The notes under the pieces were generated by a model. That model ran no database searches. It was not told the origin of the DNA and worked only from the letters and a program-made list of their open reading frames with translations. Shown here in pieces: positions 6,250 through 20,121 of a DNA stretch of 64,000 nucleotides (position 1 is the first letter of the stretch; the number at the start of each line of letters is the position of its first letter). Source of the stretch: Anabaena lutea FACHB-196 (GTDB lineage Bacteria; Cyanobacteriota; Cyanobacteriia; Cyanobacteriales; Nostocaceae); NCBI RefSeq assembly GCF_014698305.1, contig NZ_JACJST010000021.1, forward strand, positions 1 to 64,000, in the 5' to 3' direction. The position numbers were made by a program, and so were the translations under genes.

Positions 6250-6628
6250 TAGTGCCGAATGCAGGTTATGCCGTAATGAAGATGTTTGAAAAGCCTAAAT
6301 TCATACTTGTCTGGGCGATTATAAATCGCGGCTATACAGGCAAAACCCATGTGGTCAAGAGCGGCTACACTTGGATATGACATTCCGAATGCAATTTTAT
6401 CTGGATTCAGGTCACGAATTACTAGTAGCTTCTGCTACTGCATGGGCGGATGCCTATCCTGGGTGTTTGGCGTTTAAGTGTATTTAAGTATAGTGATCAA
6501 TTATCTATTTGTAATACATTATATAGGACTCCTATTTGATTTTTTTTGGCGCAGTCTACGCTTGCAAGAATAATTACACGTCTATATACTTCTTCCCTCC
6601 CTGCCCACACAATTAAAAATTGAGCAGC
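6250..6628. other. Intergenic region with dispersed repeats
   Basis: No gene is seen. Around 6315-6350 there is a sequence of the GGCGATTATAAATCGCGGC type, a palindromic motif that I believe is widespread in Nostoc intergenic DNA. A TATAGGACTCCTATTTGAT segment near 6520-6540 recurs at about 31290-31310. The promoter of the kinase gene should lie in the A/T-rich last 120 bases. Confidence 0.5.
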
Positions 6629-9600
6629 ATGGTTAGCACTCTTGTCAGTATTCCCGGTTATAGCATCACTGAAGAACTATACAATGGTTTAAGAACCCTG
6701 GTTTATCGAGGGGTTAGAGAGACTGACTTCTTACCAGTGGTGATTAAACTGCTGAAAAATCCTTATCCAACTTTTGGCGAACTCTTGTCATTTCGCAATC
6801 AGTACACCATTGCTAAAAATCTCAACTCCCCCCTAATTATCCAAACCTATAGCCTCCAAGCCTATCAGAACGGTTATGCGCTGGTGATGGAAGATTTTGG
6901 AGGGATTTCTCTTCAAGAGTGGGTAGTGGGGGGAAGGGTCGAATCTTTAATGGAGTTTTTGGAAATAGCGATCGCACTCTGCAAGGCCTTAGATATACTT
7001 TACTGCGAGCGGATTATTCATAAAGATATCAAACCTAGGAATATTTTAATTAATCCCGAAACCAAACAAGTTAAATTAATCGACTTTAGTATTGCATCTT
7101 TACTGCCACGGGAAACACAAACACTAATCAATCCCAATGTGTTAGAAGGAACACTTGCTTATATCTCTCCAGAACAAACAGGAAGGATGAATCGGGGGAT
7201 TGACTACCGCACTGACTTCTATTCAGTCGGTGTAACTTTCTACGAATTACTCACTGGAGTTTTGCCATTTCGATCAAATGATCCGATGGAGTTGGTGCAT
7301 TCTCATATTGCGAAACTTCCACCCCTAGTACATGAAATTAACCCACAAATCCCGTCTGTAATCTCAGCGATTGTCAGTAAATTGATGGCAAAAAATGCTG
7401 AAGATAGATATCAGAGTGCGTTGGGATTGAAGTTTGATTTAGAAAATTGTTTACATCAGCTACAAGTTAATGGTATAATTGAGGGCTTTGAGATTGGGAA
7501 ACGGGATGTGTGCGATCGCTTCATCATCCCTGATAAACTCTATGGACGAGAAGCTGAAGTATCAACCCTACTCCAAGCATTTGAAAGAGTTAGCCTTGAT
7601 GCAACAGAAATGATGTTGGTAGCCGGGTTTTCGGGAATTGGGAAAACTGCGGTTGTCAACGAAGTTCATAAACCGATTGTGCGTCAACGCGGCTATTTTA
7701 TCAAAGGGAAATATGACCAATTTCAACGGAATATTCCCTTCAGTGCATTTGTGCAAGCATTTCGGGATTTAATGGGGCAATTGCTATCAGAAAGTGACGT
7801 TCAAATTCAGCAATGGAAAAATCAAATATTATCAGCAGTTGGCGAAAATGGACAGGTAATTATTGAAGTCATTCCCGAATTAGAAAAAATCATTGGCGAA
7901 CAACCACCAGCAGTAGAATTATCAGGAACTGCGGCACAAAATAGATTTAATTTATTATTTCAAAAATTCACTCAAGTCTTGACCAGTGCAGAACATCCCT
8001 TAGTAATGTTCCTTGATGATTTACAATGGGCAGATTCAGCATCACTGAAATTAATCCAGTTATTAATGGCTGATACAAATCATCTTTTATTAATTGGTGC
8101 ATACCGTGATAATGAAGTAGATCCGGGACATCCATTAATGTTGACTTTGAGTGAAATTCAAAAAAACCAAGCAACTATTAATACTATTACTTTAACACCC
8201 CTGAGTCAATCCCAAATCAATCAATTAGTCGCTGATACCCTAAAAAGTACGGAAAATTTGGCATTACCCTTTTCCCAATTAGTCTATCAAAAAACTAAAG
8301 GCAACCCATTTTTCGCCACCCAATTTCTCAAAGCCCTACATGAAGAAAATCTCATTCAATTTAACTTGGAGTTAGGCTGTTGGCAATGCGATCTGTCCCA
8401 GATTAATCAACAAGCCTTGACCGATGATGTTGTAGAATTTATGGCGTTGCAGTTAGAGAAGTTACCCTTAGCAACCCAGAATATTCTGAAGTTAGCCGCT
8501 TGCATTGGCAATCAGTTCGATCTCACAACATTAGCAATTGTTTCAGAACACTCAGAAGTAGAAACCGCAGCCAATTTATGGAAAGCATTGCAAGAAGGTT
8601 TGATTTTACCAATTGGTGATATTTATAAGTTTTATCAACAAGAGTCATTAGTCATTAGTCATCTGTCATTAGTAGATAGTCAAAAACAAATGACCAATGA
8701 CAATGGACAAATGACAGTTTCTTATAAATTTTTACACGATCGCGTTCAACAAGCAGCCTATTCCCTAATTCCCGATGACCAAAAACAAACGACTCATTAC
8801 CAAATCGGACAACTGCTTCTACAACAGATTTCCGCACAAGCTAGAGTTGACCGGATTTTTGAAATCGTCAATCAATTAAATCACGGAACTGCTTTAATTA
8901 CCCAACCAACTCAACGAGAAGAATTAGCCCAACTCAATTTAATTGCCTGTCGCAAAGCTAAAACTTCAACTGCCTATCAAGCAGCGCGTGAATATGCGAC
9001 AGTGGGATTGTCTTTGTTGGCAGAAAATACTTGGCAGCAGCAATATGAAATGACCCTCACCTTGCATGAATTAGCGGCAGAAGTAGCACTGCTAAACGGT
9101 AACTTTGAGGCAATGGAACAATTCATTGATACTGTTATTCAACAGGCACATTCCTTACTAGAAAAGGTTAATGTTTACTGCATTAGAATTCAAGCAAATA
9201 TCTCTCAGGGTAAACTCACTGACGCGATCGCACTTGCTCAACCAGTCTTACAACAGCTTGGTGCCACTTTTCCTGAAACACCCACACCATCAGATTTGCA
9301 ACAAGAAATCCAAGAGATTGAGGAACTGATTGGAGATAGGCAAATTGCCGATTTGATTAACTTGCCTCAGATGCGAGATGCCGAAAAACTCGCTATTCTG
9401 AAGATTGCCAGTATCATTAGCCCAGCAGCTTACCTCACTGGTTCAGCGTTGTTCCCATTGCTGAATACTTTGTCCGTTAAACTCTCGATTCAGTACGGTA
9501 ACACATCGACTTCTACTTACGGCTATGCGAACTATGGCAATATTCTTTGCAATTTCTTTCAAATCGTGGATACAGGAACGCAGTTTGGTTCCCTGGCACT

Positions 9601-12466
9601 CCAAATTATCTCAAAACTCGATGCCAAAGCAAGTAAAACAGATGTTTTGATGCTATCGGGGTTGTTTATTGTACACCGCAACTCTCACATTCAAGAAACA
9701 CTACCCCTCTTGCAAGAAGGTTACACCAGTGCGTTAGAATTTGGCAACCTGGTACTTGCTGGGTACAATGGCCACAGTTTTTGTCTCAATTCTTTTTGGT
9801 GCAATCAACCCCTGGCTACCTTAGAGCAGGATATTTGCGCCTACTGCCATAGTTTGATGCAAATAAATCAATTGACAACCGCAAATTATTGTCGGATTTA
9901 TTGGCAACCGGTTTTAAATCTGCTGGGTGTTGCAGAACATACCACCCTTTTGTCTGGAAAAGCCCTTGAGGAAACAGAATTTCGACCGCAGCTACAATCC
10001 GCCAATGATGGATATGGATTGTATATTTTCTATTTATATAAATTAATGCTTTGTTTCTTGTTTGGAGAAATTGAGCCAGCGAAAAATCATGCTAGTGAAG
10101 TCAGGCGCTATTTTATGGCTGGTGCGGGATTAGTCAGCGAACCAGTATTTTATCTTTATGATTCTCTGCTAACTTTGGCACAATTAAATCCACAGTTAGA
10201 TGAAATATCAGAAGCATTGCAGGGTGTCATAGAAAATCAAACTCTTTTACAGCAATGGGCGGATCATGCACCCATGAATTATCAACATAAGGTTGATTTG
10301 GTAGCGGCAGAAAAATGTCGAGTGTTAGGACAAAAAGCCGAAGCAATTGAGTTTTACGACAAGGCGATAACTCTAGCCAAAGCTAACGAATATACCCAAG
10401 AAGAAGCACTTGCTAACGAACTGGCAGCAAAATTCTACCTAGATTGGGGCAAAGAGCGCATAGCCGGGGAATACATGGTTGCAGCCTATTACGCATATTC
10501 TCGTTGGGGTGCAAAAGCCAAAGTCGCTGATCTAGAAGCTCGCTATCCGCAACTACTTAGACCTATATTAGAGCAAACCCGTTCTCCTCTCTCCACTCAC
10601 GAAACTCTGTTTACATTGGGTAGTGTCACCTCCACTAGTTCGGCCATATCCAGTAGTAATGTTTCTCTGGCTTTAGATTTAGCTACTATTCTCAAAGCTT
10701 CTCATACTATTTCCGCTGAAATCGAACTGGAAAATCTACTTTCATCGTTGATGACCATCGTCATCGAAAATGCGGGGGCTGATAAATGCGTGTTCATGCT
10801 TATGCGAGACGATCGCCTGTTAATCAAAGGGTCAATTACCACAGGTTCAAAGCCAGTTGTCTTGCAGCGTATTCCCATTGAAGATAGCCAGGACATTCCC
10901 CACAGACTGATTTACAAAGTCTTGCATGACAAGCAAACTGCTGTGCTGGTGAATGCAAGTGCCGATCGCACCTTAGCCAACGATCCATACATCATCCGTC
11001 AGCAGCCCAAGAGTATTTTGTGCAGTCCGATTTTGCATCAAGGGAAATTGAGGGGCATTTTGTATCTAGAAAATAATCTAGCAACGGGAGCATTTACAAG
11101 CGATCGCGTGGAATTGCTAAATTTACTTTGCGCTCAAGCGGCGATTTCTTTGGAAAATGCTCGATTGTATGAGCGATCGCTAGAGTATTCCCAACAACTA
11201 GAGCGATCGCTCAATGAGTTGAGTGCGAGTAACTCTCGCTTCCATAAGCTAGTAGACAATGTGCCTGGGGTAGTTTTTCAATATGGCATGAGTGCCGATG
11301 GGTTTATATCGTTGAGCTACATCAGTGCCAATTGTTACAGCTTGCTGGAAATTACCCCAGAGCAAGCCATGTCCAATTGGCAGTTTTTGACAGATATGGT
11401 GCATCCAGATGACATCGCAAGTTTTCGGCAGTCCCAAACTCACACCATTCAAACCGAATCTTCCTGGCACTGGGAAGGGCGAATTATCACCCCATCAGGG
11501 ATTATCAAGTGGATTCATGGGGAATCTCAAATCCAAAGATTTGCCGATGGCTCTATGGTTTGGGATGGATTATTTTTGGATATTAGCGAACGTAAACGAG
11601 CAGAGCAAGAACTGCAAAATGCCCAATTACAAATAGTGCAAAGTGACAAAATGTCTGCACTGGGTAACTTAGTTGCTGGTGTCGCTCACGAAATGAATAA
11701 TCCCCTCGGTTTTATTGCTGCTAGTCTCACACAAGCTAAACCTACTATCGCTGATATTGTTGAACACTTGAAACTCTATCAACAAAATCTACCAAATCCA
11801 GCCGATGAAATTATAGACCACGCTAAAGAAATTGATTTGGATTATAGCTTATCAGACTTGCCCAAGATAATTGATTCTATGTCTATAGCGTGCGACAGGC
11901 TCAAAAACATCAGCACCAGTTTACGTACTTTCTCTCGTGCCGATCAAGATTACAAAGTGCCATTTAACATTCATCAAGGTATTGATAGCACAATTTTAAT
12001 TTTGAAACATCGCCTTAAGGCAAATCAACACCGTCCTGCTATTGAAGTTGTGAAAAAATACGGTAATTTACCTCAAGTAGAATGTTTTCCTGGTCAATTA
12101 AATCAGGTATTTATGAATCTACTGGCAAATGCTATTGATGCCTTGGATGAATCTAATCATGGAAGCAACTTTGAAGGAATTAAAGCTAGTCCTAACCGCA
12201 TTATAATTACAACTTCAGTAGAAACTAATCTAGTTAAAATTGCCATTGCTGATAATGGTAAAGGGATGAGTGAACAAGTAATATCAAAAATATTTGACCA
12301 TTTATTTACTACAAAAGCTGTTGGTAAAGGCACAGGATTAGGATTAGCAATCGCCCAGCAAATTATAGTGGAAAAACACAACGGTTCGCTTTTTGTGAAT
12401 TCTACACTCGGTGAGGGATCTGAATTTGTCATTACCTTACCCATTCTGGCTGAAATTCCAGGTTAA
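6629..12466 (+). CDS. Giant hybrid Ser/Thr kinase - AAA ATPase - GAF - PAS - histidine kinase
   Basis: A 1945-residue signalling protein. An N-terminal Ser/Thr kinase domain (about 10-275) has VVIKLL for the ATP lysine and HKDIKPRN as catalytic loop near 130. Next comes an AAA/ORC-type ATPase with P-loop GFSGIGKT near 332-339 and LVMFLDDLQWAD as Walker B, then a long helical, TPR-like region to about 1330. A GAF domain (about 1370-1520), a PAS domain (about 1535-1655) and a histidine kinase follow, with phosphoacceptor His1687 in AHEMNNP and G-boxes ADNGKGM and GKGTGLGLA. The architecture matches the Hstk family known in Anabaena. The DFG metal motif reads DFS, so Ser/Thr kinase chemistry may be altered. 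I preferred the ATG at 6629 to the in-frame TTG at 6620. No response regulator is adjacent. Confidence 0.93.
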   Translation: MVSTLVSIPGYSITEELYNGLRTLVYRGVRETDFLPVVIKLLKNPYPTFGELLSFRNQYTIAKNLNSPLIIQTYSLQAYQNGYALVMEDFGGISLQEWVVGGRVESLMEFLEIAIALCKALDILYCERIIHKDIKPRNILINPETKQVKLIDFSIASLLPRETQTLINPNVLEGTLAYISPEQTGRMNRGIDYRTDFYSVGVTFYELLTGVLPFRSNDPMELVHSHIAKLPPLVHEINPQIPSVISAIVSKLMAKNAEDRYQSALGLKFDLENCLHQLQVNGIIEGFEIGKRDVCDRFIIPDKLYGREAEVSTLLQAFERVSLDATEMMLVAGFSGIGKTAVVNEVHKPIVRQRGYFIKGKYDQFQRNIPFSAFVQAFRDLMGQLLSESDVQIQQWKNQILSAVGENGQVIIEVIPELEKIIGEQPPAVELSGTAAQNRFNLLFQKFTQVLTSAEHPLVMFLDDLQWADSASLKLIQLLMADTNHLLLIGAYRDNEVDPGHPLMLTLSEIQKNQATINTITLTPLSQSQINQLVADTLKSTENLALPFSQLVYQKTKGNPFFATQFLKALHEENLIQFNLELGCWQCDLSQINQQALTDDVVEFMALQLEKLPLATQNILKLAACIGNQFDLTTLAIVSEHSEVETAANLWKALQEGLILPIGDIYKFYQQESLVISHLSLVDSQKQMTNDNGQMTVSYKFLHDRVQQAAYSLIPDDQKQTTHYQIGQLLLQQISAQARVDRIFEIVNQLNHGTALITQPTQREELAQLNLIACRKAKTSTAYQAAREYATVGLSLLAENTWQQQYEMTLTLHELAAEVALLNGNFEAMEQFIDTVIQQAHSLLEKVNVYCIRIQANISQGKLTDAIALAQPVLQQLGATFPETPTPSDLQQEIQEIEELIGDRQIADLINLPQMRDAEKLAILKIASIISPAAYLTGSALFPLLNTLSVKLSIQYGNTSTSTYGYANYGNILCNFFQIVDTGTQFGSLALQIISKLDAKASKTDVLMLSGLFIVHRNSHIQETLPLLQEGYTSALEFGNLVLAGYNGHSFCLNSFWCNQPLATLEQDICAYCHSLMQINQLTTANYCRIYWQPVLNLLGVAEHTTLLSGKALEETEFRPQLQSANDGYGLYIFYLYKLMLCFLFGEIEPAKNHASEVRRYFMAGAGLVSEPVFYLYDSLLTLAQLNPQLDEISEALQGVIENQTLLQQWADHAPMNYQHKVDLVAAEKCRVLGQKAEAIEFYDKAITLAKANEYTQEEALANELAAKFYLDWGKERIAGEYMVAAYYAYSRWGAKAKVADLEARYPQLLRPILEQTRSPLSTHETLFTLGSVTSTSSAISSSNVSLALDLATILKASHTISAEIELENLLSSLMTIVIENAGADKCVFMLMRDDRLLIKGSITTGSKPVVLQRIPIEDSQDIPHRLIYKVLHDKQTAVLVNASADRTLANDPYIIRQQPKSILCSPILHQGKLRGILYLENNLATGAFTSDRVELLNLLCAQAAISLENARLYERSLEYSQQLERSLNELSASNSRFHKLVDNVPGVVFQYGMSADGFISLSYISANCYSLLEITPEQAMSNWQFLTDMVHPDDIASFRQSQTHTIQTESSWHWEGRIITPSGIIKWIHGESQIQRFADGSMVWDGLFLDISERKRAEQELQNAQLQIVQSDKMSALGNLVAGVAHEMNNPLGFIAASLTQAKPTIADIVEHLKLYQQNLPNPADEIIDHAKEIDLDYSLSDLPKIIDSMSIACDRLKNISTSLRTFSRADQDYKVPFNIHQGIDSTILILKHRLKANQHRPAIEVVKKYGNLPQVECFPGQLNQVFMNLLANAIDALDESNHGSNFEGIKASPNRIIITTSVETNLVKIAIADNGKGMSEQVISKIFDHLFTTKAVGKGTGLGLAIAQQIIVEKHNGSLFVNSTLGEGSEFVITLPILAEIPG

Positions 12467-12622
12467 CTTTTTGGAGATTTTGCAAACCATATGTTCATAA
12501 AATTCCTATAAATCCAGCTTTTTTTCCGGTAAATGAGTTCAGATTGTTGCAAGAAGAGTGGTGATTTACATTTTTTGTGTTATAACCCTCACAGAAAATG
12601 AACTAAGGCAGACGACTACTCT

Positions 12623-15181
12623 ATGGAACCAGACAAGCTGGCCCGGTTTAAAGAGTACGGTGAATTTATCCTCAGGAAAATTGACTCAGTACCCCAACGT
12701 CCTTCCCAACAAGAAGATTGGGTTCCTACTAGCCTCGATGATTGTTTAATGCGCCTGCGGGAGGCTGCACAGAAAACTGTAGAACTGGCTACCTCACCCG
12801 TAAAAATCGGCGTTATGGGTGAATTTAGTAGCGGGAAAAGTTTACTACTGGGTAGTCTGATTGGTTATGCAGATGCTTTACCCGTCAGCGAAAATCCCAC
12901 AACTGGGAACGTTACTGCCATTCATATTCAGCCCCAGGATGGCTTTGTTACCACCAAAATAGATAATTACACGGTTGAATATTTATCTCATGAAGGTGTG
13001 AATGAGTGTTTGCACTTCATGTTGGGGGAAGCAAACCGCCGCGCTACCGCCGCCGGACTACCACCGTTACAAGTCTCCAAAATCAAAACAGGCAAAGATA
13101 TTTCTATCTGGTGTGAGGAAGCATGGAAAAGCTCAAGTAATTTAGAGTTACGCTATTTGCTGCGAGAGTTAGTGTTATTTCTGCGGGCTTATCAAGCTTA
13201 TGGTGAGGCTTTATGTGGTAGTCATTATCACATTGATGCTGCTACAGCCCATGAGGGATTACAACTAACGGAAATGCCCATGGCTATCCAAACTCTCAAA
13301 TTTGAGGATTTACCTCCAGCCCATATCCGTTTACCAAGTGCGCCCCAAAGACTACAAACGCAATTATTACAAAATAGCTTTCTCTTGATTCGCCGTGTTG
13401 ATATTGATGTGAAAATATCACAGGAAATTTGGGATGTAAATGGTGCTGAGGAATTTGTACTGTTAGATTTTCCCGGCTTGGGGGCGGCGAATTCCGGTGC
13501 AAGGGATACCTTTTTGTCACTGCGGGAATTGGCACAGGTACAGACGATTCTGGTGTTGCTCAATGGTAAATCACCGGGAAGCGATCGCGCTAATAAAATC
13601 TTCACGATGATGCAGCAGCAACGACCAGGACAAGATTTAAAAGATTTAATTCTTGTCGGTGTGGGACGTTTTGACCAATTACCTCTGGATAGTGAAGGTG
13701 GCGAAAGAATACTGGATTTTTTAATTGAAGATCATCCCAATTCTCAACCTTTGCAGACAGATATAGTTTTCCAAAAACTGAAAGTTCTACAAACTATGAT
13801 TGATGGGGCGGAAGCTTTTACTAGCCAAAAAGACCGCATCGTTTTATTATCTCCATTGTTAGGATTAGCTGAACTAGCAAAACGTTCGACAACAGTTAAA
13901 GCAGGGTCAGAAGAGTTTATTGCTAATTTAGATTATCCTGATTATCTAGAACGGTCGAAGCGAATACAACAAAAATGGGGTAAATTAAGCGAACGGTTGT
14001 TAACAACTGAGACGCGGAATAATCTAGGTAGACAGTTAGGTTATTTTGCCCAAGATGGCGGTATTAGTAAACTGCGAGAATTGATTCAAAATCATGTTGC
14101 CACACATGGTTTAAAGCAATTATATGAAGATACTCGGAGGGCGGCTGATGTAGTGCGTCAGCAACAAGAACAGCTAAAAGATATCATTGAAGAAATTCAC
14201 GAACAAGGTATTCCCACAGTTGATAATCCGGCTTTAGTTGAATTGCGGTTAGGAATTGAAAGTTTAGATAAAGCTTACAGAAACTTTCAAAAAGATTTGG
14301 GGAAAGAACCACTCAAAGATCGGCGGGGAGTTGTTGTCAGCGATGTCATTAAAGACGAATTGACTTATCGAATTCTCAATTGGAGTCAGTGGACTTTACT
14401 ATTTAATAAATCCCAAAATGGGAAAATTGCTTTAGCAGAATCTAAAGGTGCGGCGGGGAAATTATTTGACAGAGGAAATAGGATTAATAATTCCTTACCT
14501 ACCAAGAGTGATGACTTTTATCCAGAATTTGAAAAGACCATTAAAGAACTGGAAGATTTTGCCCGCGATCGCATTCGTCAGGCAGTGGTAGACTTGTTAG
14601 GTAAATTAGCCAGTCAAGTAGTTTTAGAACGGGAAAATTTACAGGCAATTCTCAAGCCAGAAATAGAACCAGTTATTGAAGAAAGGTTTGGAGTAGAAGC
14701 AGCAGACTTATTTTATAAACTCCTCTTAGGATGCGACCCTAATCAATGGAAAGAAGCAATTATCTTAGAAATCAACAGCCAAGATAAAGCGATTTCACCA
14801 GAAATGATGTTTCCCCTAGCGCGACGAGATGAGAAACACAACATTGGGCAAATTTTTGATTGGTCGCCAGAAAAAAACCAAAATTCACCTCGTTCTGCAA
14901 ATCATCAAATGTTTGTTTTACGTCTGCGAGATGAAATCACAGCCAGCGCCAGTCTTCATCTTGTCCAATATGTCAGCGAAGTAAATCAGCAAGTTAATGC
15001 CGAATTAGAAGGGATTTTGGATCAAATTATTCCCAGTTTACAAAATCTATCTAAAAAAGAAGAATTACTCCGATATATTGCAGCAGGAGACGCACCTCCA
15101 GAATTAGCAATTCCCACTTGGTTACAGATTCTTTCAGGTATTGCCGAAATTAAGGAAAGTGATACCTATGAGTATCTTTAA
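12623..15181 (+). CDS. Dynamin-like GTPase
   Basis: An 852-residue large GTPase. The G1 P-loop is GEFSSGKS at residues 66-73, G3 is DFPGLG from Asp282, and a G4-like RFDQ is at 349-352; a long helical stalk-like region follows, with acidic coiled stretches near 510-570. Bacterial dynamin-like proteins remodel or tether membranes. No transmembrane segment is obvious. It heads a co-directional run with the Hsp70-like ATPase at 15419 and the 363-aa protein at 19030. This pairing recalls the SrfC/SrfB proteins of enterobacteria, but I cannot verify homology here. The first ATG fits; the ribosome site is weak. Confidence 0.8.
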   Translation: MEPDKLARFKEYGEFILRKIDSVPQRPSQQEDWVPTSLDDCLMRLREAAQKTVELATSPVKIGVMGEFSSGKSLLLGSLIGYADALPVSENPTTGNVTAIHIQPQDGFVTTKIDNYTVEYLSHEGVNECLHFMLGEANRRATAAGLPPLQVSKIKTGKDISIWCEEAWKSSSNLELRYLLRELVLFLRAYQAYGEALCGSHYHIDAATAHEGLQLTEMPMAIQTLKFEDLPPAHIRLPSAPQRLQTQLLQNSFLLIRRVDIDVKISQEIWDVNGAEEFVLLDFPGLGAANSGARDTFLSLRELAQVQTILVLLNGKSPGSDRANKIFTMMQQQRPGQDLKDLILVGVGRFDQLPLDSEGGERILDFLIEDHPNSQPLQTDIVFQKLKVLQTMIDGAEAFTSQKDRIVLLSPLLGLAELAKRSTTVKAGSEEFIANLDYPDYLERSKRIQQKWGKLSERLLTTETRNNLGRQLGYFAQDGGISKLRELIQNHVATHGLKQLYEDTRRAADVVRQQQEQLKDIIEEIHEQGIPTVDNPALVELRLGIESLDKAYRNFQKDLGKEPLKDRRGVVVSDVIKDELTYRILNWSQWTLLFNKSQNGKIALAESKGAAGKLFDRGNRINNSLPTKSDDFYPEFEKTIKELEDFARDRIRQAVVDLLGKLASQVVLERENLQAILKPEIEPVIEERFGVEAADLFYKLLLGCDPNQWKEAIILEINSQDKAISPEMMFPLARRDEKHNIGQIFDWSPEKNQNSPRSANHQMFVLRLRDEITASASLHLVQYVSEVNQQVNAELEGILDQIIPSLQNLSKKEELLRYIAAGDAPPELAIPTWLQILSGIAEIKESDTYEYL

Positions 15182-15234
15182 TAGGCGGGGTTGCAGAAGA
15201 GATAATTTTCCCAATAAATCATGACCAATGACCG

Positions 15235-15365
15235 AAGAGGACGCGGAGAGTCGCCTGTGTCCGACGTTCGACGTAAATGGTTTCCAGCCCCCGACTTGAG
15301 TGGTGGAGAAGAAAAAAGACATTCCTTGCTGGAATCCCCTGGCTTTAGACATGGGGTGTAAGAGC
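15235..15365 (+). mobile_element. Remnant of an IS200/IS605-type (TnpB) right end
   Basis: A short open frame ends at the TAA at 15359-15361 with residues SLLESPGFRHGV, which looks like the tail of a TnpB-type protein. The same bases contain the imperfect hairpin CCCCTGGCTTTAGACATGGGG, typical of the right end of such elements. The rest of the element is missing. The call rests on recognition of these motifs and is tentative. Confidence 0.45.
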
Positions 15366-15400
15366 GTCTCCGTGTCCCCGTGTCCCCGTGTCTTCTTCAA
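15366..15400. repeat. Short tandem repeat CCCCGTGT
   Basis: Three CGTGTCC units follow the IS remnant and lie just upstream of the ATP-binding protein gene. Its ribosome site, AAGGA near 15407, comes right after the repeat. Confidence 0.6.
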
Positions 15401-15418
15401 TAATAAGGAACCTACATA

Positions 15419-18400
15419 ATGCCTGTGGAAATTAGCCTTCCACCTCGTTATCAACTGCGTGTTAAAGACAATAAAAGTTTGGATTTACCTGCTATTCAAA
15501 TTGTGGCAGCTAATAGCAATATCCCGCATATTTCTCGTATTATCTGCACCGTCAGAGGTACGCCAACGAAACTAGCCGCAGAAATTCAACAAAAATATAA
15601 ACACTTTAACTCGGCTACACCTAAAAAAATCTCTAACTTATGTCAACTAGGCCAATATCCCTATCAGTTAGAGGAACCCATCACAGAAGTAGTAAACTGT
15701 ACTTTACAGGTAATTGTTGAGTATTTTGACTCTAATGCTACCGGAAATCCAATTTTATCTATCCGCAAGCATCTGAGTGTTTCCTGTAATCTTTGGTTTT
15801 CACCAGATTTTCAAACAATAGCAATGGATACGCCAATGAACCCTTTTGAATTAGATACCTATCTAAATAAATTAAGTCAGCAATTGAGTGAAAAATTGAA
15901 CGAAAAATCTAAAAAAAGATTTCCTGGTTGGTTTGCTTTAGATTTTGGGACTTCTAATTCTACAGTTACACTTTTCGATCCTATTGAAGTTCCAATTGCG
16001 GAAATTTTACCACGAGAACAAGAACTCCGATTACGTCAACGTTTAGCAGATTGGTTAAATTCTCCTGTTACTTCTGCTTTACCTGAAGTGAGTGTGGGTG
16101 AATGGGAAAAGTTTATTGCTAATATTAGCAAAAATTTAGAAATTGAACCAGAACAGTTAAGTGAAGTTTTTGAAAGTGATAACAAAGAGCAATTTTTAGA
16201 AGCTATTCGCCAAATCGAATTATGTCTAGGAAACAGTGACCGATTTCGTCGTGCTGTCAGTAAAAAACTTTATCAAATCTATCATGAAGTCTTCCGTGTC
16301 CCGACTTTAGAATCACAGAACTTAATTCCTATAGTTTTAGATATTGACAGACGAGATACAGAAATTCCCAGTGAAATGGAAGTATTGCAACTAGCGCCAT
16401 TAAAGTTGGGAATGGGTAGAGAAGCCAGAGATAATAGAAAAAAAGCGATCGCATACGGTGCGTCAAAGACAAACCCGCAAGGTACAACTACTTCTGTTAA
16501 AGAAATTATTAGCCGATTTCACCACTCTCCGAAACGCTACTTTGGTCAAAATCGTACTTTCCCGGTAATCATAGACGGGGAAGAAGAAAATATTCAAGTT
16601 AATCAACTAATTCAAGCTGCTTGGGCGCATTTGATCGAATTAACTGAAGATTATCGCCAACGCGCTAGACGCAGATTTTCTGAGGGAGATTTATTAACAG
16701 CAGTTGTCACATACCCGACAGTCGCACCTCCAGTAGTTCGCAAAGAAGTTAAACAACTGGTAGAACAATTGGGAATTGATGATGTGCAAACAGCCTATGA
16801 TGAAGCTGTTTCTGTAGCCATATTCTTTTTATGGCGAGAATTTGGGGGAAATTTAAATATTGGAATTGAATCTTTTAAAACTCGCTGTCGCCAAAATGGC
16901 AATAAATGGTCACAAAATGTTTTAGTTTTGGATATCGGCGGTGGGACTACAGATTTAGCTTTAATTGAACTAACATTAGAAGATAAAACTCCATTTTTTG
17001 CTGATAATGAAGACCGAGGTTTAGGCGGACGTTATTATAAACTAACTCCTAAATTATTAGGTTCTTCAGGACATTTACAATTAGGTGGTGAATTAATTAC
17101 TTTGCGAATTTTCCGGCTTTTAAAAATTGCCCTGGCTGATTTTCTTTTAACAGCATTAACTAATGGAGACATCGAAAGCGATAAATTAGATGACCTAATT
17201 AACTCTGAATTAAATGAACGCTTTTTAGAAGAAGGTAATTTTAAACCTGGAAGTTTATTGAAATGTGTAGATAAAGAAAATCCTGAAGGTGACGTTGCAT
17301 TCAAAGATGCTTTAGATACAGCCGAAAAAGTATTACCTACCCGCTGGCAACAAGCACCCCAACGCCTACAAACATTTTACACACTTTGGGATCATGCCGA
17401 AGCGGCTAAACTTAAATTAGGACAAAAACCACCCGGTGACGGTTCTTTATTTGTTTTTACTCTTTCTGAACAACAAATTAGTGAACTACTAGCCCAAAGT
17501 GGAGTTAAGTTTCAAGTGATCATTCCTGATGCTATTTCTCTAACTATAGACAGTCAGCAATTTGAACGCAGTGCAGTTTCGCCAATTAAAGAAGCAATTG
17601 GAATTGCAAAAGGACTAATGGAAAGTCGCTTAGATTCTGGAGATAGTCAAAAAGTAGATTGGTTAATTCTCTCTGGCAAAACTTGCAATCTTGACTTGGT
17701 ACAAAATCAAATTTACCAAGAATTTAGCAAATCTCCCTATTTTGTTTGGAACCCAGAACGAATTACGTTTGTTTTAGAATTTACCAAACTCGCGACCTCT
17801 GCTGGTGCTTGTTATGCTGAAAAATTACGCCGATTAAGATTTGATCCTGAAGAATCAAAAAGTCTACTGCGTAAAGGCGCAAACCAGTTAGAAATAGATG
17901 TTAAAAACCTATTTTATTATTTACCTTGTAACTTCAAACGTAAAACCCAAAGTAACGAATTGTTAGGAATATTTAACGCTGGACAAGAACTCTATCAACT
18001 TGCTGCATGGGAAAGCGTCGCTAAAGTTCGTACTCATTGGCAAGGTATACAATTAACAAATATTATCTATCGTCAAGACTATGAAGATGGCGATTTACGT
18101 CTCTGGGGTAGCTTTGATGGAAAAACTTTAATGGAGAAACTAGGCATGGAAGAAGCACAGTTTCTCAAACAAATTAAAGTCCAATTTGAAATTGACCAAA
18201 CATTACAATTTAGCGTTTTGCTATGTCAAGGAAATCCACATTATTTAATAGATGTTGCTGGTATTGATGTCAATTCAGCTATATCAAAAGATTTAGAAAC
18301 ATCAGATCTATTCGCTGATGGTAAATTAAAGTGGAATATTGCCGTTGAAGGTTACTATAAAGACTTAAATGATGGTGATATTGCTATCAATGTTTTAGAG

Positions 18401-18844
18401 TCAGCAACGGTTGATCTACCAAATGCCTATCATTTAGTATTTGCAGTTGATAATAATGAAAATAAACGACTAGAAACATTTCACTATTTACAAGATGGTG
18501 TGACAGAACCGGGCAAAGGTTTAATTAGTAATGCTTTACCACCTTTCCCTCAAAGTGGACAACACACTTTCTATGTTTACCAAACAGATAGTGAAACTAA
18601 TACAAAAAAATGGATACGCATTGGTTCACTGAGTAAGCCAGATATTACTACAGATTACCCCTGTCAATATCATATTACTCTCGACAACAAAGGTATATTG
18701 CGAATGCACGCGGGTGAAGTTCCCTACTGGACATCACACAATCAAGAATGTCTCCAACAAGAAGGATGTGTTTATCGTGCAGAATTGGAATTACAACCCA
18801 ATGAAGTTGATAAAGAACGCGATCCTTTTTGCGGAATACATTAA
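15419..18844 (+). CDS. Hsp70/actin-like ATPase, large
   Basis: An 1141-residue protein with the actin/Hsp70 nucleotide-binding signature in three parts: phosphate-1 DFGTSNST from Asp175, phosphate-2 DIGGGTTD from Asp505, and an adenosine-type SGKTCN near Gly753. The gap between phosphate-1 and phosphate-2 (330 residues) is far longer than in DnaK, so the fold carries large inserts. About 170 residues precede the ATPase core, and a C-terminal region of about 300 residues (some beta-rich) follows. It resembles the SrfB class in size and layout; that relation is inference. It lies between the dynamin-like gene and the 363-aa gene and probably works with both. AAGGA precedes the ATG. Confidence 0.8.
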   Translation: MPVEISLPPRYQLRVKDNKSLDLPAIQIVAANSNIPHISRIICTVRGTPTKLAAEIQQKYKHFNSATPKKISNLCQLGQYPYQLEEPITEVVNCTLQVIVEYFDSNATGNPILSIRKHLSVSCNLWFSPDFQTIAMDTPMNPFELDTYLNKLSQQLSEKLNEKSKKRFPGWFALDFGTSNSTVTLFDPIEVPIAEILPREQELRLRQRLADWLNSPVTSALPEVSVGEWEKFIANISKNLEIEPEQLSEVFESDNKEQFLEAIRQIELCLGNSDRFRRAVSKKLYQIYHEVFRVPTLESQNLIPIVLDIDRRDTEIPSEMEVLQLAPLKLGMGREARDNRKKAIAYGASKTNPQGTTTSVKEIISRFHHSPKRYFGQNRTFPVIIDGEEENIQVNQLIQAAWAHLIELTEDYRQRARRRFSEGDLLTAVVTYPTVAPPVVRKEVKQLVEQLGIDDVQTAYDEAVSVAIFFLWREFGGNLNIGIESFKTRCRQNGNKWSQNVLVLDIGGGTTDLALIELTLEDKTPFFADNEDRGLGGRYYKLTPKLLGSSGHLQLGGELITLRIFRLLKIALADFLLTALTNGDIESDKLDDLINSELNERFLEEGNFKPGSLLKCVDKENPEGDVAFKDALDTAEKVLPTRWQQAPQRLQTFYTLWDHAEAAKLKLGQKPPGDGSLFVFTLSEQQISELLAQSGVKFQVIIPDAISLTIDSQQFERSAVSPIKEAIGIAKGLMESRLDSGDSQKVDWLILSGKTCNLDLVQNQIYQEFSKSPYFVWNPERITFVLEFTKLATSAGACYAEKLRRLRFDPEESKSLLRKGANQLEIDVKNLFYYLPCNFKRKTQSNELLGIFNAGQELYQLAAWESVAKVRTHWQGIQLTNIIYRQDYEDGDLRLWGSFDGKTLMEKLGMEEAQFLKQIKVQFEIDQTLQFSVLLCQGNPHYLIDVAGIDVNSAISKDLETSDLFADGKLKWNIAVEGYYKDLNDGDIAINVLESATVDLPNAYHLVFAVDNNENKRLETFHYLQDGVTEPGKGLISNALPPFPQSGQHTFYVYQTDSETNTKKWIRIGSLSKPDITTDYPCQYHITLDNKGILRMHAGEVPYWTSHNQECLQQEGCVYRAELELQPNEVDKERDPFCGIH

Positions 18845-18845
18845 A

Positions 18846-19000
18846 GTAATTCGTAATTCGTAATTCGTAATTAAGTTATTCTTGATTTTCTCCGCGTCCC
18901 CGCGTCCCTCCATCTCCCCATCTCCCCATCTCCCCATCTCCCCATCTCCGTGTCCCCGCGTCCCCCCATCTCCCCATCTCCCCATCTCCCCATCTCCCCT
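18846..19000. repeat. Tandem repeats CGTAATT and CCCCATCT
   Basis: A short run of CGTAATT units (18849-18875) is followed by a long run of CCCCATCT units interrupted by CCCCGCGT units (18893-19000). This fills nearly all of the gap between the Hsp70-like gene and its downstream partner. Repeats like these are common between genes of heterocystous cyanobacteria. Open frames across them are meaningless. Confidence 0.8.
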
Positions 19001-19029
19001 GCAATGCAAATTCACTATTTCTCAGCCTC

Positions 19030-20121
19030 ATGATGCAGCATTTACGTCAATTAATAGAAATAGAAAATTCAGAATTAGCCCAAGTGCTACGATTTGGTTT
19101 ATATGGATTAGAAGCGGCACTAAATCAGGCGCGAGAGGAATATTCACAAGACCCAGGAATTGAGTTATGTGATCAGGTTTTGCAAGAACTTTATGAACTT
19201 TTACGACCGATACCATTTGCACAAGTTGAGGATAGTAGAGGATTAAAATTAATTCATTTGCAAAAAGCTTTTAATTCTGACTCAGAACTAAATTTTTATC
19301 TAGGAAATTCTCCTTTACAAAGCCAAACAGATGCTGACTTGTGGAATGAAATTCAACGCTATTTGCTGCGAGTTCCTGAAGATTTAGCTACATCTTGGAG
19401 ACAGTTGGCTGGGGAAATGGCGCAAGAAGTTGGCGCGGTTGAAGACAATCAAAATCTTGATGAATTGCCATTTATTCGTGATGAGTTAATTTATCCTGGA
19501 TTGAGTGGAACTGTTCAAGCTAAAGGGCTATGTTTATCTCAAAAAGCACTTTTGAAAACAGAGATAACCCGGATTTATCCAACCTGTGATTTACAGTTAT
19601 TAGCTGGGTTTATACTTTTATATATTAAATGTATTGAGATAGAACCAAATTTACATCATGCTTTGAAGAGCGTGTTTAGTTTTGATGTGGTTTCTTTACA
19701 CACCAACCCAGAACAGCGCCATCTCTATCTTGAAGCATTGAGCGATCGCTTGCAACGTACCGAAAAAGCTGAGGAAAATACTGACCCTATCTTCAATCTA
19801 CGTGCTTGGATTGACATGGATGAAGCTATCCATTCCTTAGTATTTATTCCCCCAGCCGAGCGTTATTCCTGGTGGGGGAAGTTACAACAAGAATCACGAC
19901 GTATCCTCAAAAAAGTTGCGAATAAAGCCATTAAAGCAGGACATGATATCCGCATTAAACAATTATCAGGACTGTATGCTGATAATTGTACTTTTTCCAA
20001 AGATGACATCCAATTAGATTGTGGCGGTACACCAGGAGAAGTTTTAACTTGTCTGCGAGTGTATGCGCGAATTAATCACGAAGAAAATCCGGGGCGGGTT
20101 CTATTTCGGTCTTTACGGTAA
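19030..20121 (+). CDS. Hypothetical protein, third member of the dynamin/Hsp70-like gene set
   Basis: A 363-residue acidic, mostly helical protein of no family I recognise. It has no signal peptide, no membrane segment and no nucleotide-binding motif. The C-terminal part contains a basic patch (RRILKKVANKAIKAGHDIR) and a segment rich in conserved-looking Cys and Gly (LDCGGTPGEVLTCLRVYAR). It starts 185 bases after the Hsp70-like gene, the gap being filled by tandem repeats, and is the last gene of the three. Position and orientation suggest an accessory or adaptor role for the GTPase/ATPase pair. Two adjacent ATGs (19030 and 19033) are possible starts. Confidence 0.75.
   Translation: MMQHLRQLIEIENSELAQVLRFGLYGLEAALNQAREEYSQDPGIELCDQVLQELYELLRPIPFAQVEDSRGLKLIHLQKAFNSDSELNFYLGNSPLQSQTDADLWNEIQRYLLRVPEDLATSWRQLAGEMAQEVGAVEDNQNLDELPFIRDELIYPGLSGTVQAKGLCLSQKALLKTEITRIYPTCDLQLLAGFILLYIKCIEIEPNLHHALKSVFSFDVVSLHTNPEQRHLYLEALSDRLQRTEKAEENTDPIFNLRAWIDMDEAIHSLVFIPPAERYSWWGKLQQESRRILKKVANKAIKAGHDIRIKQLSGLYADNCTFSKDDIQLDCGGTPGEVLTCLRVYARINHEENPGRVLFRSLR

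Follow-up and report, generated by a model that had tools for sequence, protein, structure and literature searches.

Among the described systems closest to the locus reported here, a trio of genes at positions 12623-20121 of a 64,000-nucleotide stretch of the cyanobacterium Anabaena lutea FACHB-196 (contig NZ_JACJST010000021.1; the whole stretch is called the window) that encodes a dynamin-like GTPase (DLP), a putative Hsp70/actin-type ATPase (HSP) and a third protein of 363 residues (U363), are the Srf proteins, of which SrfA, SrfB and SrfC of Xenorhabdus stockiae bind one another, according to the accessible part of that report (PMC6950479). The available portions of two further papers describe a Salmonella srfC mutant, a polar srfB mutation and an operon deletion that affect swarming and leave swimming unaffected (PMC4219756), and the carriage of srfB and srfC by host-associated Deltaproteobacteria, with unclear function (PMC3608642). 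Kaur et al. 2020 described conflict systems in multicellular prokaryotes with which GTPases, HSP70 and GrpE are linked; the main text of that paper does not use the words "dynamin", "SrfB" or "SrfC" (PMC7159879). For cyanobacterial dynamins, the part of a membrane-dynamics review open to us names Nostoc bDLP1 and Synechocystis Slr0869, and the trio was not met there (PMC9950537). Nor did searchable open papers yield a description of a dynamin/Hsp70-like/U363 trio.

Here we find that the trio is a real conserved unit that reaches beyond the cyanobacteria to certain soil-dwelling and filamentous bacteria, and we propose, at a probability of about 0.42, that its products may form one membrane machine in which a private Hsp70-like ATPase, together with a GrpE-like exchange factor, operates a dynamin.

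Results

The trio occupies the following positions in the window:

12623..15181, + strand: DLP, dynamin-like GTPase, 852 amino acids (ATG start; Dynamin_N match and AlphaFold2 model matches)
15419..18844, + strand: HSP, predicted SrfB-like Hsp70/actin-type ATPase, 1141 amino acids (ATG start; Pfam SrfB match)
19030..20121, + strand: U363, third protein, possible GrpE-like exchange factor, 363 amino acids (ATG start; Foldseek)

An earlier note on this DNA had read three large open reading frames (ORFs) in succession on one strand, which these positions confirm, with gaps of 237 bases between DLP and HSP and 185 bases between HSP and U363. The same arrangement recurs in the other 24 sampled genomes of the window's family, the Nostocaceae, where DLP and HSP are adjacent and in the same order in 24/24 and U363 comes next in 22/24; the two genomes in which U363 lies away from the pair retain it elsewhere. 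Across 72 loci, a set in which at least four genomes are counted twice (L032/L064, L042/L070, L044/L072 and L051/L094) and some contigs stop right next to the genes, the complete trio is found in 63, each time as DLP-HSP-U363 on one strand. The linked gene set postulated in the earlier note, which had named rare adjacency of the homologues as a refutation, is thus borne out. All five actinobacterial loci keep the order DLP-HSP-U363, with 27-30% identity to the window proteins in the two that were aligned, and in a Myxococcota metagenome-assembled genome (MAG) HSP and U363 are adjacent on a contig that starts inside HSP, the position of DLP lying beyond it. Identity is 27-39% where aligned, over the trio of cyanobacteria and actinobacteria and the HSP-U363 pair of the MAG. 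No neighbour besides the trio is common to more than 11 of the 25 family loci (window included; flanks of limited length; ORFs inside the three genes or overlapping their ends excluded). Ratios of nonsynonymous to synonymous substitution (dN/dS) against four relatives are 0.06-0.10 for DLP, 0.075-0.114 for HSP and 0.14-0.25 for U363. Because the genes are under purifying selection and their order is kept, also outside the cyanobacteria, the trio represents more than a chance association.

As far as sampled, the trio is universal in one family of cyanobacteria, and its occurrence in other groups is patchy. Of 194 sampled cyanobacterial genomes, 25 carry HSP; these are all Nostocaceae (13 genera) and include every sampled member of that family (25/25). 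The same 25 genomes, and none of the 169 others, hold U363 and DLP (the latter at E up to 1e-20), and the cyanobacterial genomes matched by the Pfam SrfB model are again these 25. A scan of named genomes gave at least 48 HSP loci, including Oscillatoria princeps, Hormoscilla, Symploca, the Myxococcota MAG, a Streptomyces and a Nocardia; the loci in the first three indicate that the count of 0/169 reflects the sample rather than all other cyanobacteria. HSP is present in 4/148 genomes of the class of this Nocardia (itself counted), in 2/296 genomes of the phylum of this Streptomyces (likewise counted) and in 1/5 genomes of the phylum of the MAG, which is the MAG itself. To call the trio a cyanobacterial version of such a machine, as the earlier note did, is therefore too narrow: it also occurs in a Streptomyces, in a Nocardia and in three more genomes of the latter's class, and is partly seen in the Myxococcota MAG. 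A tblastn search of the plasmid database PLSDB with the three window proteins and two actinobacterial HSPs gave no match, and we rejected plasmid spread of the trio; in IMG/VR viral contigs none of 43 pattern matches with an HSP alignment was confirmed.

Several loci depart from the common form. DLP is split in one family genome (G019, L043:11501-14088); another has HSP split close to the N-terminus (G068, L049:8746-11743); a third (G125) has a 278-residue ORF (L045:11935-12771) in a gap of about 1.4 kb between DLP and HSP. Nostoc sp. KVJ20 (L076, L090) and Calothrix sp. PCC 7103 (L091, L097) each carry two diverged HSP copies, and at the second copy of KVJ20 the DLP ORF has about 250 extra N-terminal residues and U363 was not found in the locus.

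Family alignments comprised 20 of 25 HSP sequences (A1; L033, L035, L037, L045 and L049 omitted), 21 of 25 DLP sequences (A2; L033, L035, L037 and L043 omitted) and 22 of 23 linked U363 sequences (A3; L033 omitted). The broad alignments, A4 (25 rows), A5 (DLP, 21 rows) and A6 (HSP, 22 rows), were hand-picked from the 48 loci, window included. The motifs and domains discussed below are:

12818..12841, + strand: DLP G1 P-loop GEFSSGKS, residues 66-73 (GxxSxGK[ST] in 21/21 A5 rows)
13466..13477, + strand: DLP G3 motif DFPG, residues 282-285 (identical in 21/21 A5 rows)
13664..13678, + strand: DLP G4-like GRFDQ, residues 348-352, non-canonical (R-F invariant in 21 rows)
14381..14392, + strand: DLP WxxW, residues 587-590, candidate membrane-contact loop (both W invariant in 21 rows)
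15419..15835, + strand: HSP N-terminal domain, residues 1-139 (tblastn match in 18/24 loci)
15941..15961, + strand: HSP phosphate-1 motif DFGTSNS, residues 175-181 (conserved in A6)
16931..16954, + strand: HSP phosphate-2 motif DIGGGTTD, residues 505-512 (conserved in A6)
17669..17683, + strand: HSP adenosine-type motif LSGKT, residues 751-755 (conserved in A6)
19939..20118, + strand: U363 C-terminal beta domain, residues 304-363, resembling the GrpE beta wing (VIA-align)

For DLP, the dynamin part of the assignment is firm. Pfam Dynamin_N scores 33.5 bits on the window protein (cut-off 27) and matches 21/21 DLP members at E up to 0.1. The AlphaFold2 model (predicted local distance difference test, pLDDT, 82.8; predicted template-modelling score, pTM, 0.63) has stalk helices at residues 481-527, 629-665 and 761-811, and Foldseek aligned it with SynDLP (7zw6, E 4.7e-14), BDLP (2j69, 9.3e-10) and IniA (6j72, 1.9e-7); there were 75 matches at E <=0.001, the best 50 including the bacterial dynamin pair 5oxf, mitofusin, dynamin and LeoA. 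VIA-align superposed the model on SynDLP 9em9 over 426 residues (Z 21.6, 8.4 A). DLP is accordingly modelled as a stalked bacterial dynamin-like GTPase, and the stalk that the earlier note had expected appears in the predicted structure, which resembles SynDLP, BDLP and IniA over GTPase and stalk alike. The intact G1 and G3 reported there hold in every aligned row; the G4-like motif is present, but its region reads [G/S]RF[D/N/H] in the 21 rows, with D, N or H after R-F. Canonical G4 is N/TKxD. We nevertheless assign DLP to the dynamins on the strength of its fold and its remaining motifs. In the model the WxxW candidate immediately precedes a region of low confidence, and it may be a membrane-contact loop.

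The sequence of HSP supports its reading as an ATPase of the Hsp70/actin type, in which the SrfB profile finds a match. All three parts of the signature that the earlier note had recognised, DFGTSNS, DIGGGTTD and LSGKT, which we take to be the phosphate-1, phosphate-2 and adenosine motifs of Hsp70/actin ATPases, are kept in 22 rows that span cyanobacteria, actinobacteria and the Myxococcota MAG; six of these rows (L088, L093, L103, L105, L109 and L111) show single conservative substitutions. Pfam SrfB (PF07520) matches the window protein at 1.8e-5 (23.4 bits, cut-off 27.1) over a local stretch, positions 508-583 of 992 (about 76), and not over its full length; the profile exceeds its cut-off in 4/25 family genomes and, at E up to 0.1, hits each of the 22 A6 sequences. 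Hsp70 (PF00012) scores 13.5 bits, below its cut-off of 20.6. The N-terminal domain is missing in six of 24 loci, three without a match (L044, L046, L047) and three with stray short matches (L045, L048, L049).

U363 has, as the earlier note held, no recognised family: Pfam, NCBIfam, PADLOC and PHROG gave no match up to E 1, and the 25 members searched against Pfam and NCBIfam returned no supported family. Its model is confident (pLDDT 91.4, pTM 0.76), and the top Foldseek match is E. coli GrpE (1dkg_A, E 0.037, probability 0.87), with human GrpEL1 (9bls) also listed. VIA-align superposed residues 304-363 on the wing of the GrpE structures 1dkg, 9bls and 9blt with Z 5.6-6.3 over 56-58 residues at 2.8-3.0 A, for example on 1dkg_B 136-195 (Z 5.9, 58 residues, 2.9 A) and 9bls_B 159-217 (Z 6.3, 57 residues, 2.8 A), and placed residues 252-361 on helices and wing of 4ani_B 110-213 (Z 5.6, 86 residues, 3.9 A). 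When the wing was scored without gaps against the GrpE profile, the structure-derived register was the best of 149 and was reached by one of 2000 column shuffles. The modelled fold suggests, through a weak match, a GrpE-like U363, the likeness by sequence also being weak. As a separate observation, the genome of the window has two diverged genes that match the GrpE profile (G000:C11:39386-39751 and G000:C34:148396-148806) besides the usual one.

Upstream of the trio lies one further conserved element:

12573..12585, + strand: candidate promoter-like block TTTTGTGTTATAA, 38-50 bases 5' of the DLP gene (conserved)

Part of this block, TGTTATAA (or TGCTATAA), begins 44-46 bases before the DLP start codon in 20/24 loci, window included. 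The motifs used to look for heterocyst regulation are GTA-N8-TAC and TCCGGA; within 400 bases the former occurred in 1/24 loci and the latter in 0/24, and we rejected heterocyst regulation of the trio.

Other neighbours are less constant. A DUF4407 gene stands directly 5' of the trio in three actinobacterial loci (L122:5809-7017; L123:13442-14842; L124:14070-15386 and 15477-16445, thus twice in L124), and its product is possibly a membrane partner. As a fourth core gene it was rejected: it exceeds the cut-off in 2/25 family genomes and was not seen in L109 and L111, where one upstream-side gene each was scanned. Just 5' of the trio in the window, positions 6620-12466 encode a 1948-residue protein with Ser/Thr kinase, AAA ATPase, GAF, PAS and histidine-kinase-type ATPase domains; beside the trio in 24 other loci no full-length counterpart was seen, the matches being confined to the C-terminal kinase region. 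The six scanned window neighbours are a ketopantoate reductase, a sensor kinase, RrnaAD, a GHMP kinase, DUF3082 and a response regulator.

Discussion

Our findings suggest how the three products might work together. Where an Hsp70-type ATPase and a protein with a possibly GrpE-like wing are encoded side by side, the pair may be an ATPase and its exchange factor, and the dynamin adjoining both may be their client. DLP would polymerise on a membrane and bend, fuse or cut it; HSP would be a dedicated ATPase of Hsp70-like type, with U363 as its nucleotide exchange factor; like GrpE, U363 would consist of a helical bundle and a beta wing that would open the cleft of the ATPase and release ADP. HSP cycling with U363 would most likely load, remodel or dismantle DLP polymers, by analogy with Hsc70, which takes apart vesicle coats in animal cells. 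A physical complex, action on membranes and the direction of the chaperone effect are all inferred. We hold only tentatively the fuller claim that a DLP polymer is assembled or dismantled by its private Hsp70-like ATPase and GrpE-like factor as a prokaryotic counterpart of Hsc70 uncoating and a core function of filamentous cyanobacteria. To judge from distribution, the trio most likely serves the routine upkeep of membranes, or the integrity of septa and filaments, in filamentous bacteria.

Several results weigh against this proposal, most of them at U363. Its Foldseek search has no match at E <=0.001, TM-scores are 0.18/0.35, and the next match, at 0.071, is unrelated. A VIA-align Z of about 6 lies under the tool's own trusted level, and unrelated chains outscore GrpE on other parts of U363, mostly residues 178-305. 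Pfam GrpE (PF01025) is listed for 0/25 U363 members up to E 10, in a search whose HMMER filters drop most weak matches; a profile search of Protein Data Bank sequences with U363 finds no GrpE; and hhalign, a local profile-profile method, misses the wing and aligns another segment at probability 1.5. Other windows of U363 score equally in the ungapped comparison, where the wing ranks third of 305 by z and fourth by raw score. In addition, the G4 of DLP is non-canonical and does not read N/TKxD, and the 25 cyanobacterial genomes belong to one family, so that their perfect co-occurrence may reflect a single inheritance.

The same evidence bears on a possible but doubtful variant in which the dynamin and the Hsp70-like ATPase form the same machine while U363 is a plain adaptor or scaffold whose beta domain is GrpE-like by chance. 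The missing sequence-level support for GrpE and the modest Foldseek E of 0.037 speak for it, whereas GrpE structures from three organisms (1dkg; 9bls/9blt; 4ani) align to one shared C-terminal region, and the partner gene encodes an Hsp70-like protein. An exchange factor role for U363 may serve as a testable proposal and is not a result.

We consider it possible but rather doubtful, though compatible with a chaperone-run dynamin, that the trio is a branch of SrfABC (DLP as SrfC, HSP as SrfB and U363 as SrfA) that acts as SrfABC does inside its own cell. The earlier note had related the locus to SrfB and SrfC, and its SrfB half is likely: the profile matches HSP in 22/22 members and exceeds its cut-off in 4/25 genomes, in a three-gene set of similar make-up. 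Its SrfC half is unsupported, as the SrfC profile (PF10139, Virul_Fac) matches one of 21 DLP members, that of Nocardia, at 0.011 and 14.5 bits against a cut-off of 28.1. In the window protein, moreover, the SrfB match extends over about 76 of 992 profile positions, and U363 has no supported family match. Kinship with SrfABC is likely for HSP, by this local match, and unproven for DLP and U363. The complex formed by the Srf proteins, in the part of that work available (PMC6950479), would fit a complex of the trio if the families are related, and the accessible account of srfABC in swarming (PMC4219756) would agree with a function of this kind.

A role of the trio in conflict or phage defence of multicellular bacteria, like that of the systems of Kaur et al. 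2020, is improbable; these authors, in the text accessible, tie GTPases, HSP70 and GrpE to such systems (PMC7159879). Such a reading draws on a Nocardia locus (L111) with Hsp70, DO-GTPase2 (29.1 vs 27 bits) and a sub-threshold GAP1-N2 (22.7 vs 24) downstream of the trio at 13019-18502, on the patchiness of the trio in actinobacteria, and on PADLOC, which reports LeoA over the G1 region of DLP at 4.1e-6 and a weak PDC-M61B on HSP at 0.027. A case for defence built on these PADLOC matches is countered by presence in 25/25 sampled family members and dN/dS of 0.06-0.11 for the two large genes; nor does PLSDB hold a match, and HSP is unconfirmed in IMG/VR. Among the six scanned window neighbours there is no GAP1, DO-GTPase or effector, the neighbours of other loci being mostly unscanned and variable effectors there not searched for. 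Universal presence, low dN/dS and the absence of plasmid matches point to a routine membrane role rather than to the defence function that the earlier note had entertained. The gaps of 237 and 185 bases between the window genes would suit an account in which three unrelated genes merely stay together, but this account is the least credible, since the same trio and order recur in cyanobacteria and actinobacteria and HSP-U363 in the Myxococcota MAG, at 27-39% identity where aligned, and U363 is retained even when unlinked.

The control of bacterial dynamins is largely open, and the trio, if our reading is true, would supply a concrete and testable control mechanism. It would also give a first mechanistic account of SrfB-type genes, now named virulence factors, in harmless and genetically tractable organisms such as Nostoc and Anabaena.

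Set beside known systems, the trio shares with SrfABC its three-gene form and an SrfB-profile match, but the SrfC profile does not recognise DLP, the order here would be C-B-A, and the locus is core in the sampled cyanobacterial family. It resembles the GAP1-N2/DO-GTPase systems of Kaur et al. in combining a GTPase with an Hsp70-like ATPase and a possibly GrpE-like protein in multicellular bacteria, although its GTPase is of a different family and neither GAP1 nor DO-GTPase is among the six scanned window neighbours. SynDLP and BDLP, the best structural matches of DLP, have the same GTPase domain and long helical stalk; at 10-15% identity in structural alignments, DLP differs from them in a long stretch between G1 (66) and G3 (282), a non-canonical G4 and a conserved Hsp70-like ATPase partner. 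With the DnaK-GrpE pair, finally, the locus has in common an Hsp70-type ATPase adjoining a protein with a possibly GrpE-like beta wing, whereas here the ATPase has 1141 residues, its 363-residue companion is not recognised by the GrpE profile, and the two are coupled to a dynamin.

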